This document shows positions 21,143 through 63,918 of a stretch of DNA of 64,000 bases, piece after piece. The notes below the pieces were generated by a model, which worked only from the letters and a program-made list of their open reading frames with translations, ran no database searches and was not told where the DNA came from. How positions within the stretch are numbered: the stretch's first letter is position 1; each line of letters opens with the position of its first letter. A program made the translations under genes and the position numbers. The stretch is taken from positions 62,001 to 126,000 of the forward strand of contig NZ_QNRU01000002.1 in assembly GCF_003315235.1 (NCBI RefSeq), written 5' to 3'. The stretch is from Neisseria gonorrhoeae (GTDB lineage Bacteria > Pseudomonadota > Gammaproteobacteria > Burkholderiales > Neisseriaceae).

Positions 21143-21219
21143 TGGCGCGGCGGACGGGGCTCGAACCCGCGACCACCGGCGTGACAGGCCGGTACTCTAA
21201 CCAACTGAGCTACCACCGC
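21143..21219 (-). tRNA. tRNA-Asp (GTC), copy 1
   Basis: The minus strand folds as a 77-nt cloverleaf beginning GCGGTGGTAGCTCAG with anticodon GTC in loop C-T-G-T-C-A-C and an encoded CCA. It is identical to the second copy at 21367. Confidence 0.95.
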
Positions 21220-21251
21220 GCATCCATTGTTTGCAACAATGAAAGGAAACT

Positions 21252-21327
21252 TGGTGGGTGATGACGGAGTCGAACCGCCGACATTCTGCTTGTAAGGCAG
21301 ACGCTCTACCAACTGAGCTAATCACCC
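21252..21327 (-). tRNA. tRNA-Val (TAC), copy 1
   Basis: The minus strand gives a 76-nt cloverleaf beginning GGGTGATTAGCTCAG with loop T-T-A-C-A-A-G (anticodon TAC) and an encoded CCA. It precedes tRNA-Asp in the transcript. Confidence 0.95.
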
Positions 21328-21334
21328 GTGTATA

Positions 21335-21361
21335 AAAAATACCGACAGAGTCAGTATTTTG
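21335..21361 (-). terminator. Terminator of tRNA unit 2
   Basis: AAAATACTGAC pairs with GTCGGTATTTT on the minus strand (one wobble), followed by T residues. It lies between the two Val-Asp units. Confidence 0.65.
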
Positions 21362-21366
21362 AAACT

Positions 21367-21443
21367 TGGCGCGGCGGACGGGGCTCGAACCCGCGACCAC
21401 CGGCGTGACAGGCCGGTACTCTAACCAACTGAGCTACCACCGC
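21367..21443 (-). tRNA. tRNA-Asp (GTC), copy 2
   Basis: Identical in sequence to the copy at 21143-21219. Confidence 0.95.
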
Positions 21444-21475
21444 GCATCCATTGTTTGCAACAATGAAAGGAAACT

Positions 21476-21551
21476 TGGTGGGTGATGACGGAGTCGAACC
21501 GCCGACATTCTGCTTGTAAGGCAGACGCTCTACCAACTGAGCTAATCACCC
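21476..21551 (-). tRNA. tRNA-Val (TAC), copy 2
   Basis: Identical in sequence to the copy at 21252-21327. The promoter of the array should lie between here and 21620. Confidence 0.95.
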
Positions 21552-55621: not shown

Positions 55622-56071
55622 ATGGACGTACAACTCCCCATCGAAGCCAAAGACATCCAAAAACTCATCCCCCACCGCTACCCGTTTCTCCAGCTCGACC
55701 GCATTACCGCCTTCGAGCCGATGAAAACCCTGACCGCCATCAAAAACGTAACCATAAACGAACCCCAATTCCAAGGCCATTTCCCCGACCTGCCCGTTAT
55801 GCCCGGCGTACTCATCATCGAAGCGATGGCGCAGGCGTGCGGCACGTTGGCGATTTTGAGCGAAGGCGGGCGCAAGGAAAACGAATTTTTCTTCTTCGCC
55901 GGCATAGACGAAGCCCGTTTCAAACGCCAAGTCATCCCCGGCGACCAACTCGTCTTTGAAGTCGAACTCCTGACCAGCCGGCGCGGCATCGGCAAATTCA
56001 ACGCCGTTGCCAAAGTGGACGGACAAGTCGCCGTCGAAGCCGTGATTATGTGCGCCAAACGCGTGGTTTGA
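55622..56071 (+). CDS. fabZ: 3-hydroxyacyl-ACP dehydratase
   Basis: FabZ dehydrates hydroxyacyl-ACP in fatty-acid elongation and competes with LpxA/LpxD for the same substrate. The 149-residue hot-dog fold has catalytic His18 in I-P-H-R-Y-P-F-L and the Glu in L-I-I-E-A-M-A-Q. It lies 35 bases after lpxD. Normally lpxA follows directly; here a foreign gene intervenes. Confidence 0.97.
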
Positions 56072-56080
56072 GCGTTCGGA

Positions 56081-56113
56081 AAAAGGTCGTCTGAAAGTTT
56101 CAGACGACCTAAA
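56081..56113. terminator. AG-mucDUS hairpin
   Basis: AGGTCGTCTGAA (56084-56095) and its inverse (56099-56110) form a hairpin. This is the uptake-sequence dialect I associate with N. mucosa-type species, unlike all other pairs in this window. Confidence 0.75.
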
Positions 56114-56124
56114 TAAAAAGAAAA

Positions 56125-56199
56125 CCCACCGGTTTAGGTTTATTCAAACCCAGGGACACGGTGGGGATTAGTTTTATCTAACTATATCAAATATAGTTT
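56125..56199 (+). ncRNA. Candidate structured RNA upstream of Abi gene
   Basis: CCCACCG at 56125-56131 pairs with CGGTGGG at 56159-56165. Inside, GGTTT (137-141) pairs with AAACC (146-150). A second AT hairpin follows: AACTATAT...ATATAGTT at 56180-56198 with a CAA/A loop. The nested fold directly before an Abi_2-type gene resembles the abiF RNA arrangement I recall from comparative RNA studies. No separate promoter is evident, so it may be part of a leader. Confidence 0.4.
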
Positions 56200-56236
56200 G
56201 AAACGTCAATTTAAAAATAAAGAATCAAGGGTTAGC

Positions 56237-56965
56237 GTGAATTATAAGGAATGCTGTAGTATTTTTTCTGATTTCAGAATGGAACGGTATAAAAATGCCG
56301 TTAGGAAAGACAAAGCAGCTGAATTGTATTTATTGAATTTATCTTTATCAAGAGAACTTTTTCATGTTGTTTCTATATTTGAGATCGTTTTAAGAAACAA
56401 AATTGATATTTGCTTTCGGCAGGAGTTTAAAGACAGAAACCGGTTATATGATAGCATACAACCACAAACGAATCCTGCATTGAAATATCAAGGTTGCTTT
56501 TTAAGAAATGGTACGAAAGAATCTGCTGAATTAATCAAGGTTGCATTATCTAAAATACAAAATAATAGCGGAGGAAAGTTTGACCACAACCAATTGGTTG
56601 CAGGACTAGGATTCGGTTTTTGGCGGTATCTGTTTGCGGGAGGGAAAGATGCTCAATTTGATGCTGCAGGAAAAGTATTGATGAAAGTTTTTCCAAAAAA
56701 GCCCAAATCTACACCAAGTGTGCAATATAACCAAAAATGGATTTTTCGAGAACTTTCCAATATTAACAATTTCCGTAATCGTTTGGCACATCACGAACCG
56801 ATTTGTTTTAGTTTTAAAGGTGCAATAAAAGATACCGGCTACGCTAGAAATATTTACCAATCTATTTTTGAACTGCTTAATTACATGGATGTAGATACTG
56901 CTTCAGTATTTAGCCATTTTAGCGATCAAGTGATTGCGGTCTGCGATGAAATCGACAAACTGTGA
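56237..56965 (+). CDS. Abi_2-like HEPN-family protein
   Basis: The 242-residue soluble, helical product resembles AbiD/AbiF (Abi_2) abortive-infection proteins. The key feature is N-N-F-R-N-R-L-A-H-H, with R180-N-R-L-A-H185 giving the R-X4-H motif of HEPN ribonucleases. A second conserved-looking N-terminal segment is E-I-V-L-R-N-K-I-D. I prefer the GTG at 56237 (AAGGG five bases upstream); a TTG at 56198 lies within a hairpin. The gene is very AT-rich beside GC-rich fabZ and lpxA, a sign of transfer. It probably acts as a toxin or phage-defence RNase; activity is inferred. Confidence 0.75.
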   Translation: MNYKECCSIFSDFRMERYKNAVRKDKAAELYLLNLSLSRELFHVVSIFEIVLRNKIDICFRQEFKDRNRLYDSIQPQTNPALKYQGCFLRNGTKESAELIKVALSKIQNNSGGKFDHNQLVAGLGFGFWRYLFAGGKDAQFDAAGKVLMKVFPKKPKSTPSVQYNQKWIFRELSNINNFRNRLAHHEPICFSFKGAIKDTGYARNIYQSIFELLNYMDVDTASVFSHFSDQVIAVCDEIDKL

Positions 56966-57007: not shown

Positions 57008-57784
57008 ATGACCCTCATCCACCCGACCGCCGTCATCGACCCCAAAGCCGAACTCGACTCCGGCGTCAAAGTCGGCGCGTACACCGTCATCGGCCCCAAC
57101 GTCCAAATCGGTGCGAATACAGAAATCGGTCCGCACGCCGTCATCAACGGCCACACCACCATCGGCGAAAACAACCGCATTTTCCAATTTGCCAGCCTCG
57201 GCGAAATTCCGCAGGACAAAAAATACCGCGACGAGCCGACCAAGCTGATTATCGGCAACGGCAACACCATCCGCGAATTCACCACCTTTAATTTAGGCAC
57301 GGTAACCGGCATCGGCGAAACCCGTATCGGCGACGACAACTGGATTATGGCGTACTGCCACCTCGCGCACGACTGCGTGGTCGGCAACCACACCATTTTC
57401 GCCAACAACGCCTCGCTTGCCGGACACGTTACCGTCGGCGACTACGTCGTTTTGGGCGGCTACACGCTGGTCTTCCAATTCTGCCGCATCGGCGACTACG
57501 CCATGACCGCCTTCGCCGCAGGCGTACACAAAGACGTGCCGCCCTACTTTATGGCATCGGGCTACCGCGCCGAACCGGCCGGCCTAAACAGCGAAGGTAT
57601 GCGCCGCAACGGTTTTACCGCAGAACAGATTTCCGCCGTCAAAGACGTATACAAAACCCTCTACCATCGCGGCATTCCGTTTGAAGAAGCCAAGGCGGAC
57701 ATTCTCCGCCGCGCCGAAACCCAAGCCGAGCTTGCCGTATTTCAAGACTTCTTCGCACAATCGACGCGCGGCATCATCCGCTGA
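57008..57784 (+). CDS. lpxA: UDP-GlcNAc O-acyltransferase
   Basis: LpxA starts lipid A synthesis by adding a hydroxyacyl chain to UDP-GlcNAc. The 258-residue product is a hexapeptide beta-helix starting L-I-H-P-T-A-V-I-D, with the catalytic His region [10 protein letters not shown] and a C-terminal helical domain. It begins 42 bases after the Abi gene, so its transcription must pass through the insertion or start within it. Confidence 0.97.
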
Positions 57785-57880: not shown

Positions 57881-57987
57881 TATAGTGGTTTAAATTTAAA
57901 TCAGGACAAGGCGACGAAGCCGCAGACAGTACAAGAAGTACGGCAAGGCGAGGCAACGCCGTACCGGTTTAAATTTAAACCACTATA
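57881..57987. repeat. Correia element (107 bp), TATAGTGGTTTAAA variant
   Basis: Termini read TATAGTGGTTTAAATTTAAA and its inverse. The element lies between lpxA and the second symporter gene. The remaining 57988-58246 has a 69-codon minus-strand frame without ribosome-binding site, and otherwise nothing clear. Confidence 0.93.
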
Positions 57988-58246
57988 GATTTCAAAAGTA
58001 TGGCAGTCGGCAGCATTGATGATTTCTGCCGCCCGCCACATCCCCATTCGGACATTTCATTGTGACCTCCGCCTCTGCTTTTAAATAATTGCAAACAATT
58101 TCCGCAGCTTGAACCGGCCTGTCTTCGGTGAAAAAACCAAAAGTATTTTTCAAAAGAACATATTGTCTTATTGAATATTCTGTGCTGAAATTACCGGACA
58201 CTACAAAAGTGGTGTTTTAAAAATAAAACAGACAAAGGAGAAAGCC

Positions 58247-61080: not shown

Positions 61081-63918
61081 ATGTTAGACAAATACTCCCC
61101 CGCCGAAATCGAATCCAAACACTATCAAAACTGGGAAAGCCAAGGCTATTTCCGGCCCGATATGGATTTGACCAAACCGTCTTTTTCCATCCAACTGCCG
61201 CCGCCCAACGTAACCGGCACGCTGCACATGGGTCATGCCTTCAACCAAACCATCATGGACGGCCTGACCCGCTACTACCGCATGAAAGGCTGCAACACCG
61301 CCTGGATTCCCGGTACCGACCACGCGGGCATCGCCACGCAAATCGTGGTCGAGCGTCAGCTTGCCGCGCAAAACGTGTCCCGTCATGACTTGGGCCGCGA
61401 AAAATTCTTGGAAAAAGTGTGGGAGTGGAAAGAAGTTTCCGGCGGCACGATTACCCAGCAAATGCGCCGCGTGGGCTGCTCCGCCGACTGGACGCGCGAG
61501 TATTTCACGATGGACGGCGTACGCGCCGAAACCGTGACCGAAGTGTTCGTGCGCCTGTATGAACAGGGCTTGATTTACCGCGGCAAACGCTTGGTGAACT
61601 GGGATCCCGTGCTTGGCACGGCGGTGTCGGATTTGGAAGTGGAAAGCATGGAAGAACAAGGCTCTATGTGGCACATGCGCTATCCGCTGGCCGACAATCC
61701 CACCGAAGCCGTTATCGTGGCGACCACCCGTCCTGAAACGTTGCTGGGCGACGCGGCCGTTGCCGTCAATCCAGAAGATGAACGTTACACCCACTTAATC
61801 GGCAAAGAATTAATCCTGCCGCTGACCGGTCGCACCATTCCGGTTATCGCCGACGAATACGTTGAAAAAGACTTCGGTACCGGTTGCGTGAAAATCACGC
61901 CTGCGCACGATTTCAACGATTACGAAGTCGGCAAACGCCACGACACGCGCCTGATTAACGTGTTCGACTTAGAAGCCAAAGTGCTGGCAAACGCCGAAGT
62001 GTTCAACTTCAAAGGCGAAGCGCAACCAGGCTTTTCCCTGCCTGAAAAATACGCAGGCTTGGACCGCTTTGCCGCGCGCAAACAAATGGTTGCCGATTTG
62101 CAGGAGCAAGGCTTCTTGGTCGAAATCAAACCGCACACGCTGATGACGCCGAAAGGCGACCGCACAGGTTCAGTGATTGAGCCGATGCTGACCAGCCAAT
62201 GGTTTGTCGCCATGTCCGCCACACCGAACGGCGGCGAGCCTGACAACGAATTCAAAGGCTTGAGCCTTGCCGACAAAGCCAAAAAAGCCGTCGACAGCGG
62301 CGCAGTGCGCTTTATCCCTGAAAACTGGGTCAATACCTACAACCAATGGATGAACAACATCCAAGACTGGTGTATTTCGCGCCAACTGTGGTGGGGGCAT
62401 CAAATCCCCGCGTGGTACGACGAAGCAGGTAATGTTTACGTCGCCCGCAATCAGGCTGAAGCCGAAAAACAAGCCGGCAAAACAGGTTTGACCCGCGAAG
62501 AAGACGTATTGGACACATGGTTCTCCTCCGCGCTCGTGCCGTTCTCCACGCTCGGCTGGCCGTCTGAAACCGACGAGCTCAAAGCCTTCCTGCCGTCCAA
62601 CGTCTTGGTTACCGGATATGAAATCATCTTCTTCTGGGTGGCGCGCATGATTATGATGACCACCCACTTCACCGGCAAAGTACCGTTTAAAGCCGTGTAC
62701 ATCCACGGCATCGTGCGCGACCACGAAGGCAAAAAAATGTCCAAATCCGAAGGCAACGTCATCGACCCTGTGGATTTGATCGATGGTATCGGCTTGGACA
62801 AGCTGCTGATGAAACGTACGACCGGCCTGCGCAAACCCGAAACCGCGCCGAAAGTGGAAGAAGCCACGAAAAAACTCTTCCCCGAAGGTATCCCCAGCAT
62901 GGGCGCGGACGCATTGCGCTTCACCATGGCGAGCTACGCCAGCTTGGGCCGTTCGGTTAACTTCGACTTCAAACGCGCCGAAGGCTACCGCAACTTCTGC
63001 AACAAAATCTGGAACGCCACCAACTTCGTCTTGATGAACACCGAAAACCAAGACTGCGGCTACGGCGCAACCGCTGCCGAACCGCGCGGCCATTCCTTCC
63101 CCGATATGTGGATCATAGGTCGTCTGAATCAGACCATCGAGCAGGTTACGCAAGCCTACGAAACCTACCGCTTTGATTTGGCGGCGGAAACCCTGTACAG
63201 CTTCGTATGGAACGATTATTGCGACTGGTATCTGGAACTCGCCAAAGTGCAGCTCCAAACCGGCTGCGCCAGCCGCCAGCGCGCCACACGCCATACCTTA
63301 TTGCGCGTACTCGAAGCCGCCCTGCGCCTGCTGCACCCGATTATCCCGTTCATCACCGAAGAACTGTGGCAAACCGTCGCCCCCATGTGCGATGCCAAAA
63401 CCGCCGACAGCATCATGCTCGCCCGCTTCCCCGAAACCGACGGCGGCGAGATTGTTCAGACGGCATTCGGGCAAATGACCGTGTTGCAGGATTTGATCGG
63501 CGCAGTCCGCAACCTGCGCGGCGAAACGGGCATCCAGCCCAACGTGAAAGCCCCGCTGTTTGTCGAAAGCGCGGACGACTTGGCGGACTACCTCAAATAC
63601 CTGCCGATGATGACCCGCCTGACCGAAGCACGGCAAGTCGCCGCCCTGCCCGAAAGCGGAGACGCGCCCGTCGCCGTCTGCAACGGCGCGCGCCTGATGC
63701 TGAAAGTCGAAATCGACAAAGCCGCCGAAACCGCCCGTTTGAGCAAAGAAGCCGAGAAGCTGCAAAAAGCCTTGGACAAACTCAATGCCAAACTCTCCAA
63801 ACCCGGCTACACCGAAAAAGCCCCGGCGCATCTGGTGGAAAAAGACAAAGCCGATTTGGCGGAATTGGAAGACAAAATGGCAAAAGTGCAAAATCAGTTG
63901 GCGAAGTTGAAAGACTGA
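61081..63918 (+). CDS. valS: Valyl-tRNA synthetase
   Basis: ValS charges tRNA-Val; two tRNA-Val genes lie in this window. The 945-residue class I synthetase has the [13 protein letters not shown] motif (HIGH-type), the editing domain around [10 protein letters not shown], the K-K-M-S-K-S-E-G-N loop and a C-terminal coiled-coil arm rich in Lys/Leu/Glu. The start M-L-D-K-Y-S-P follows a weak CAGGGCTTCAT. An AG-DUS hairpin follows. Confidence 0.98.

Follow-up and report, generated by a model that had tools for sequence, protein, structure and literature searches.

A candidate AbiF-like toxin gene and an opposite-strand RNA, its putative antitoxin, between fabZ and lpxA of Neisseria gonorrhoeae, with solitary RNA copies in phages

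The fabZ-lpxA spacer in the Neisseria gonorrhoeae DNA analysed here (the window, 64,000 nucleotides, positions 62,001 to 126,000 of contig NZ_QNRU01000002.1) appears to carry an AbiF-like pair of a HEPN toxin and an RNA antitoxin, a reading to which a probability of about 0.7 is assigned. As judged from the sequences, this is a pair of the AbiF kind whose RNA fails the Rfam abiF model RF03085 and is encoded on the strand opposite to the toxin gene. The protein would be a dimeric HEPN ribonuclease with harmful effects in its free state, and it would be bound and held inactive by a hairpin RNA of ~55-60 nt, which would be made from its own opposite-strand promoter and ended by its own U-rich tail. 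Phage infection would upset the supply or stability of the RNA, the protein would be freed, and growth of the infected cell would stop. The features of the locus are as follows.

55622..56071, plus strand: fabZ, the upstream neighbour, an open reading frame used as tblastn anchor in the junction survey
56084..56110, no strand assigned: inverted pair of AGGTCGTCTGAA, a DNA uptake sequence of the AG-mucDUS type, with 13-nt arms matching at 100%
56114..56174, minus strand: small structured RNA, with a predicted start at ~56174 and a predicted U-rich end at ~56114; model match at 56119-56172
56125..56165, minus strand: hairpin of this RNA, with outer helix, CCC internal loop and inner helix, based on the conserved fold and on folding against shuffles
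56181..56209, minus strand: predicted sigma-70 promoter of the RNA, with -35 TTGACG at 56209-56204, a 17-nt spacer and an extended -10 TATAGT at 56186-56181
56237..56965, plus strand: Abi_2/HEPN protein, the AbiF-like toxin candidate, 242 aa from a GTG start, based on PF07751, PADLOC, AlphaFold and dN/dS
56774..56791, plus strand: HEPN RNase motif R-N-R-L-A-H, with R180, N181, R182, A184 and H185
56807..56815, plus strand: Ser-Phe inserted shortly after the HEPN motif through a 6-nt duplication, seen in alignments
57008..57784, plus strand: lpxA, the downstream neighbour, an open reading frame used as anchor in the surveys of relatives

The initial annotation had noticed an AT-rich reading frame with an R-N-R-L-A-H motif at this place, and this is borne out by a G+C content of 34.6%, versus 56% for the upstream and 58% for the downstream neighbour (presumably fabZ and lpxA, the names used in that annotation). 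Its statement that the two genes are normally adjacent needs correction, as a spacer of ~60-140 nt separates them in most relatives; the inserted gene is better described as a recurrent resident of this spacer. A segment of 6.7 kb of the window is 99.66% identical to the N. gonorrhoeae record NZ_CP119142, which is listed as a plasmid but has the size of a chromosome. The toxin candidate probably starts at GTG 56237, since the starts of its relatives align there, AAGGG precedes it and a repeat of ~107 nt is inserted upstream in L006/L016. The alternative TTG at 56198 is less likely because a close relative has this insertion between 56212 and 56216, and in L006/L016 the inserted copy separates the RNA promoter from the toxin start. 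The same inverted-repeat element (TATAGTGG...CCACTATA) also occurs at 57882-57990 of the window, 3' of lpxA, and related copies are located near 26028-25916 and 30637-30532. Elsewhere in the window (21146-21551), two tRNA gene pairs have pairwise identical scores, which suggests a duplication.

The toxin candidate matches the Pfam family PF07751 (Abi_2) with 28.0 bits, above the curated cut-off of 25.6, and Abi_2 is found at E <= 0.01 in all 25 members of protein profile A6. The five motif residues listed above are invariant across the 27 rows of protein alignment A4, as expected for the R-x4-H pattern of HEPN proteins. The AlphaFold model (pLDDT 90.0, pTM 0.86) yields as first PDB match 8VZ6, the PbAbiF dimer with its ncRNA, at a probability of 1.00 and a TM score of 0.59 (Foldseek E 0.061, identity 14%); the second rank has a probability of 0.38, and no PDB chain is found at E 0.001 in this structural search. 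Profile A6 also ranks 8VZ6 first, at E 0.11 and without significance, and the entry is absent from searches with profile A1 and with the single protein sequence. Based on the model, an AbiF-like fold with distant kinship is likely, and the assignment as an Abi_2/HEPN protein in the initial annotation is supported. The likely fold and the presence of an RNA partner are shared with PbAbiF-AbiFr (PMC12737573, PMC12373285), while the low identity and the length of 300 aa in the 8VZ6 chain set PbAbiF apart from the protein described here. A search of NCBIfam returned no match for the toxin candidate, and its best PADLOC model is PD-T4-5 (E 2.7e-14, positions 4-209 of 309 covered, for a model without stated cut-off). 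PD-T4-5 is described as a plasmid-borne distant relative of AbiF/D acting in abortive defence and resembling toxin-antitoxin systems, and the passages on it in PMC9519451 mention no RNA partner.

The nested hairpin proposed at 56125-56165 turns out to be real: it is conserved, and none of 200 dinucleotide shuffles folds as well as this stretch; the folding z-score is -3.3 on the plus strand, with the neighbouring AT hairpin included, and -3.6 on the minus strand. A hairpin core of ~32-42 nt is common to the window, to Neisseriaceae whose proteins are ~40-63% identical, and to relatives from Bacteroidota and Acidobacteriota. The latter two phyla contributed 45 distinct cores, 39 of which were combined with five Neisseriaceae copies in alignment A2. 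Read on the toxin strand, these 44 sequences keep 90.4% of the cells in 13 pairs, and their covariation is 0.383 versus 0.155 (reached in 0 of 500 shuffles); sliding the pair partner by 1-3 columns leaves at most 45.9% pairing. The count of double-change pairs (reached by 115 of 500 shuffles) and that of further pair types (498 of 500) are unremarkable in A2. For the opposite strand, 56 sequences were aligned, including 12 viral or phage-like ones. Of their pair cells 97.0% are kept, with 126 double-change cells versus 37.8 and a covariation of 0.506 versus 0.190 (each reached by 0 of 500 shuffles); the number of pairs containing a double change is ordinary (reached by 104 of 500). Conserved pairing across homologous loci, which had been set as a test of the original proposal, is therefore found together with compensatory changes. 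Unpaired positions are conserved as well, namely the C-rich internal loop, the A opposite to it and an AUU before the stem, whereas the loop is the main variable element.

Two models of the RNA were used, R1 trained on all copies and R2 on the 39 copies from outside the Neisseriaceae. Both were built with the motif on the toxin strand, so their folding model misses wobbles, but the copies are still found. R1 detects the window RNA with 42.5 bits as the sole match in 64 kb at E <= 10, and R2, which had no Neisseriaceae in its training, still matches it with 23.5 bits (E 1.3e-5). When presented with 11 Neisseriaceae copies, R2 recovers all 11, and at E <= 1 its only other match in 124 kb is the phage-like L175; a suspected half-relic (L033) is missed by both models. 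Across 83 Neisseriaceae genomes, R1 yields 11 strong matches in 10 genomes, representing nine filled fabZ-lpxA sites, the relic site L074 and one further copy in genome G061. Three weak matches in this family (L184-L186, 16.8-19.3 bits) were judged from their context to be due to chance.

The assignment of the RNA to the minus strand rests on wobble pairs and on promoter placement across lineages. Read on the toxin strand, the pair cells consist of 515 Watson-Crick, 39 A.C, 2 G.U and 16 other combinations; as an A.C on one strand corresponds to a G.U wobble on the other, the excess of A.C over G.U argues for an RNA on the minus strand. Note that the rows are related and that 21 of the 39 A.C cells fall in one column, but six columns contain such cells. 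Promoter placement likewise speaks against an RNA on the toxin strand. The motif TAnnTTTG, the -7 promoter element of Bacteroidota (PMC7366714), lies 9-12 nt before the UCCC of the RNA in 54 of 62 loci, and within 40 nt in 57, on the RNA strand. On the other strand it is seen in 6 of these 62 loci, at the other flank in none of the 62, and in shuffles in 3.0. These 62 are the regex-positive loci among the best 80 of 495 relatives. For the Neisseriaceae, a promoter of the TTGAC-17/18-TA-like type with the same placement is seen in all eight sites examined, with 9 to 11 of 12 positions matched; these are eight of the 11 filled or relic sites (all except L017, L022 and L033). The scores within Neisseria are modest at 9-10, being reached by 9.4% (the window), 38%, 41% and 2.4% of shuffles, with 38% and 41% belonging to the two promoters at 9 of 12, while those in the other genus are strong (11 of 12, reached by 0.2-0.6%). 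Simple letter shuffles were used in both promoter tests. A promoter scan of the window region gave 3 promoter-like sites versus 2.6 in shuffles, and a terminator scan of the same region does not list the tail of the RNA. The strand assumed in the initial annotation is therefore wrong, and the RNA is not a leader on the toxin strand; it runs away from the toxin gene and has its own predicted promoter. The AT hairpin at 56180-56198, listed there beside the nested hairpin, overlaps the extended -10 element of this promoter.

The expected covariance match of the upstream region to Rfam abiF did not materialize, as RF03085 scores 12.9 bits against the window (E 3.5), far from its gathering score of 37, and the match is not even on the strand that had been assumed, so membership in this family is ruled out. 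RF03085 is not found at its gathering score in any of 20 loci searched, nor at E <= 10 in L093 1890-1980, and the RNA reaches no gathering score of Rfam 15. A description of this RNA was found neither in Rfam 15 nor in the literature search, which leaves room for an earlier one; the main text of a gonococcal RNA-seq study (PMC4176332) contains neither lpxA nor fabZ nor any of three locus tags looked for. From the proposed module of an RNA antitoxin and a HEPN toxin, the Abi_2/HEPN protein and a conserved RNA thus remain, whereas the RF03085 match and the toxin-strand leader have to be given up. The closest described counterpart is AbiF-RCd22 of Clostridioides difficile phi027 (PMC12373285), which shares the Abi_2/HEPN protein, an RNxxAH-type motif and a short hairpin RNA adjoining the gene. 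C. difficile AbiF is reported there to be toxic and to be neutralised in trans by a protein-binding RNA, a mode of action which is demonstrated for AbiF-RCd22 and would apply to the present pair by analogy (PMC12373285). RCd22 is encoded on the toxin strand, co-transcribed, composed of two RF03085 motifs and located in a prophage lysis module (PMC12373285), while the present locus, at a chromosomal site, has a single RNA that is encoded opposite to the toxin, is preceded by a predicted promoter of its own and scores below the RF03085 threshold. The layout of type III toxin-antitoxin systems, with an upstream RNA co-transcribed on the toxin strand as in ToxIN and RCd22, is therefore not the one found here.

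The linkage of RNA and toxin was assessed in the best 80 of 495 relatives from genome contigs. The regular expression finds the motif within 500 nt upstream of the toxin in 62 of these 80 loci, and R1 finds the RNA in 16 of the remaining 18, giving 78 of 80; the two misses (L113, L170) start at the toxin. R1 had not been trained on those 16, but L112 is the same contig as L091, and its core is identical to the one in L090, which was in the training set. Within these 78 loci among the best 80 of 495, the RNA is upstream and divergent in 65 (in L109 at a distance of 1.6 kb), downstream and convergent in six, and downstream on the toxin strand in seven, two of which have tandem copies. TAnnTTTG is present on the RNA strand of 15 of the 18 copies in the 16 loci found by R1, the exceptions being L112, which has a sigma-70 type promoter, and the second copies of two tandem RNA pairs located downstream of the toxin in L149 (1120-1230) and L161 (2798-2908). 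Considering all downstream copies among the best 80 of 495, 13 of 15 carry the element on the RNA strand.

These arrangements bear on the possibility that the RNA is a cis-acting leader or an antisense regulator of the toxin mRNA, either as an attenuator or in a type I-like manner. An upstream position, as in the window and in the 65 loci, would make the RNA antisense to any read-through toxin leader, and U-rich sequence borders its 3' end in 50 of the 62 regex-positive loci. A leader function is impossible in the 13 of 78 loci where the RNA is downstream on either strand, and conservation extends beyond the pairing to unpaired positions, which makes regulation in cis quite unlikely. Because side and strand change while the linkage persists, a diffusible partner is favoured, and the RNA is probably a trans-acting antitoxin. 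In 16 toxin-bearing genomes searched as a whole, 18 of 19 RNA copies have a toxin within ~1.5 kb. The remaining one (L238, at G110:C190:39440) is solitary in a Bacteroidota genome that also contains a full pair; it is preceded by TATCTTTG, and a nearby reading frame matches a PHROG family of unknown function. Among 149 genomes of one Bacteroidota family, the RNA occurs solely in two that had been chosen earlier for having the toxin, and it thus appears to be rare in this family.

A view on the corresponding sites in the Neisseriaceae indicates that the pair is dispensable. The protein has relatives in 13 of 83 genomes, lpxA was identified in 78, and the fabZ-lpxA junction was resolved in 66 of these; the other 12 were not counted because fabZ was not found (four) or lpxA was confused with a related gene (eight). 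Nine junctions from two genera are filled, all with RNA plus toxin (the toxin of L091 has a changed C-terminus), two are apparent relics and 55 lack the pair, some of them holding other inserts. The claim that the placement in the lpx operon matters hence finds no support, and the idea of the lpx site as a required one was rejected on these counts. Inserts of 319-1401 nt occur between fabZ and lpxA in other Neisseriaceae (L088, L079, L080), suggesting that the spacer tolerates insertions. Although from the same genus, lpxA of L007/L089 (G009) and of G016 is only 58% and 51% identical to that of the window, compared to 83% for lpxD of G009, which may indicate a replacement of lpxA.

One old entry of the pair at the lpx site, followed by transfers and losses, fits the sequences best; in a tree, the four toxins included from this site group together with support of 97/90. 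The window contains 67 uptake sequences of the AT-DUS and four of the AG-mucDUS dialect (dialects in Neisseria are described in PMC3630211), and two of these four make up the inverted pair at 56084..56110, which is followed by a T-run on the minus strand only. As the same AG-mucDUS pair is present at the empty sites L019, L020 and L023 of related genomes, the segment probably arrived by transformation, with an AG-mucDUS Neisseria as donor. A locus that has decayed or become inactive in the present organism would be compatible with the GTG start, with the Ser-Phe duplication near the HEPN motif, which is absent from the five close relatives aligned and from the nearest gonococcal record L173, and with the relics seen elsewhere at the lpx site: L074 retains the RNA and a promoter matching 11 of 12 positions next to a broken fragment of the toxin gene, and L033 probably represents a second case, with half of the RNA seemingly kept as judged by eye. 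The window frame is open, its dN/dS is 0.24 against L005 and 0.27 against L003 (0.23 for L008 against L010; the pair of window and L007 is saturated), and its RNA keeps 13 of 13 pairs, so that decay of this locus is considered very unlikely.

The RNA also occurs without a toxin in phages. A first pattern of ~46 specified bits retrieved 11 virus records from IMG/VR, two more patterns added one and two, and a fourth added none, whereas the complement of the first pattern, with the same information, had 0 matches in the same collection. Although R1 was trained without them, all 14 records score 43-66 bits; they represent 12 distinct cases, as L191 and L194 repeat L190 and L193. The toxin profile has no match in any of the 14 whole records (0 of 11 and 0 of 3, the latter search being positive for G061, G110 and G264), and PF07751 none in the first 11; the RNA is therefore solitary in these phage sequences, which may be fragments. 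On the side where an upstream-type toxin would be expected, the record of L195 stops 33 nt and that of L198 130 nt past the motif, so that its being alone says little in these two. A thirteenth case, L188, is located on an 11.6-kb contig of genome G061 with holin-like and DarB-like genes, where ~440 nt remain on that side and are filled by the holin-like frame; this assembly has 7% contamination and also contains a toxin at lpxA. Conversely, the RNA is present in only one (L201) of 21 virus loci with a toxin relative. A BLAST search of INPHARED phages with one RNA query gave 15 records, all partial and with E of at least 1, and tblastn of the protein against phages gave no match.

PHROG matches of known function lie near the RNA in nine of the 12 cases, namely terminase (L189), NUDIX hydrolase and methyltransferase (L191), DNA polymerase exonuclease (L192), exonuclease VIII (L193), major head protein (L197, L241), baseplate hub (L198), UvsX-like protein and endonuclease VII (L199) and portal (L242). 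No match was obtained for the two frames tried in L195 and the three in L196, and one of four in L200 belongs to a family of unknown function. Reading frames around these copies were called mechanically, and the two flanking the RNA in L189, which match no family, may not be genes. The RNA is co-directional with the nearest frames in 10 of 13 cases (opposed in L188, L196 and L198), follows the major head gene by ~15 nt in L197 and a frame by 4-12 nt in L242, L241 and L190, and is preceded at 9 nt by TAnnTTTG in L193, L198 and L200. It might be asked whether these copies are ordinary terminators or chance hairpins, as several follow a same-strand frame by 4-27 nt and the stem is succeeded by a U-run in several. 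This is regarded as unlikely, given the R1 scores, the lack of a U-run in L190, L199 and L200, the absence of matches to the pattern complement, and the retention of 12-13 of 13 pairs and of the unpaired core in the 11 solitary IMG/VR copies of alignment A5 (from which the repeats L191 and L194 and the later-found L241 and L242 were left out).

The contrast between hosts, which have the RNA beside the toxin, and viruses, which mostly have it alone, suggests decoys: the solitary phage RNAs may keep the toxin inactive during infection, and with several of them behind structural genes, large amounts would be produced at a late stage of infection. Phage-borne solitary copies of the RNA of a defence system are also described for the pseudo-ToxI of phage PhiTE (PMC3475682) and for RNA anti-CRISPRs (PMC10651486), which belong to other systems and other RNA families. 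The wider proposal of an RNA antitoxin family distinct from abiF, free-standing and mobile around its toxin and repeatedly captured by phages as decoys, which would amount to a counter-defence by RNA against an Abi system, is a tentative one, held at somewhat less than even odds. The same copies help to judge a role of the RNA as an activating or guide cofactor of the HEPN nuclease, comparable to a crRNA, in which RNA and protein together would form the active defence unit. The tight linkage of the two would agree with such a role, as would the description of AbiF as the precursor of Cas13 (PMC12737573). No variable guide part is seen, however, variation being concentrated in the loop, and toxin-less phage copies as well as a relic with a broken toxin are better suited to an inhibitor, which renders a guide function highly improbable.

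If the reading as an antitoxin RNA with an AbiF-like toxin is correct, an RNA family scoring below all gathering thresholds of Rfam 15 would pair with an Abi_2 clade that spans at least three phyla, and action in trans would be implied by the strand and mobility of this RNA. Most surprising are the phage copies. They would provide naturally occurring candidates for RNA inhibitors of an AbiF-like toxin, from a group proposed as the ancestor of Cas13 (PMC12737573), and would allow a direct test of whether phages commonly mimic antitoxins with RNA. For Neisseria, the odd gene between fabZ and lpxA would then be an old and dispensable passenger which has probably moved between species of the genus.
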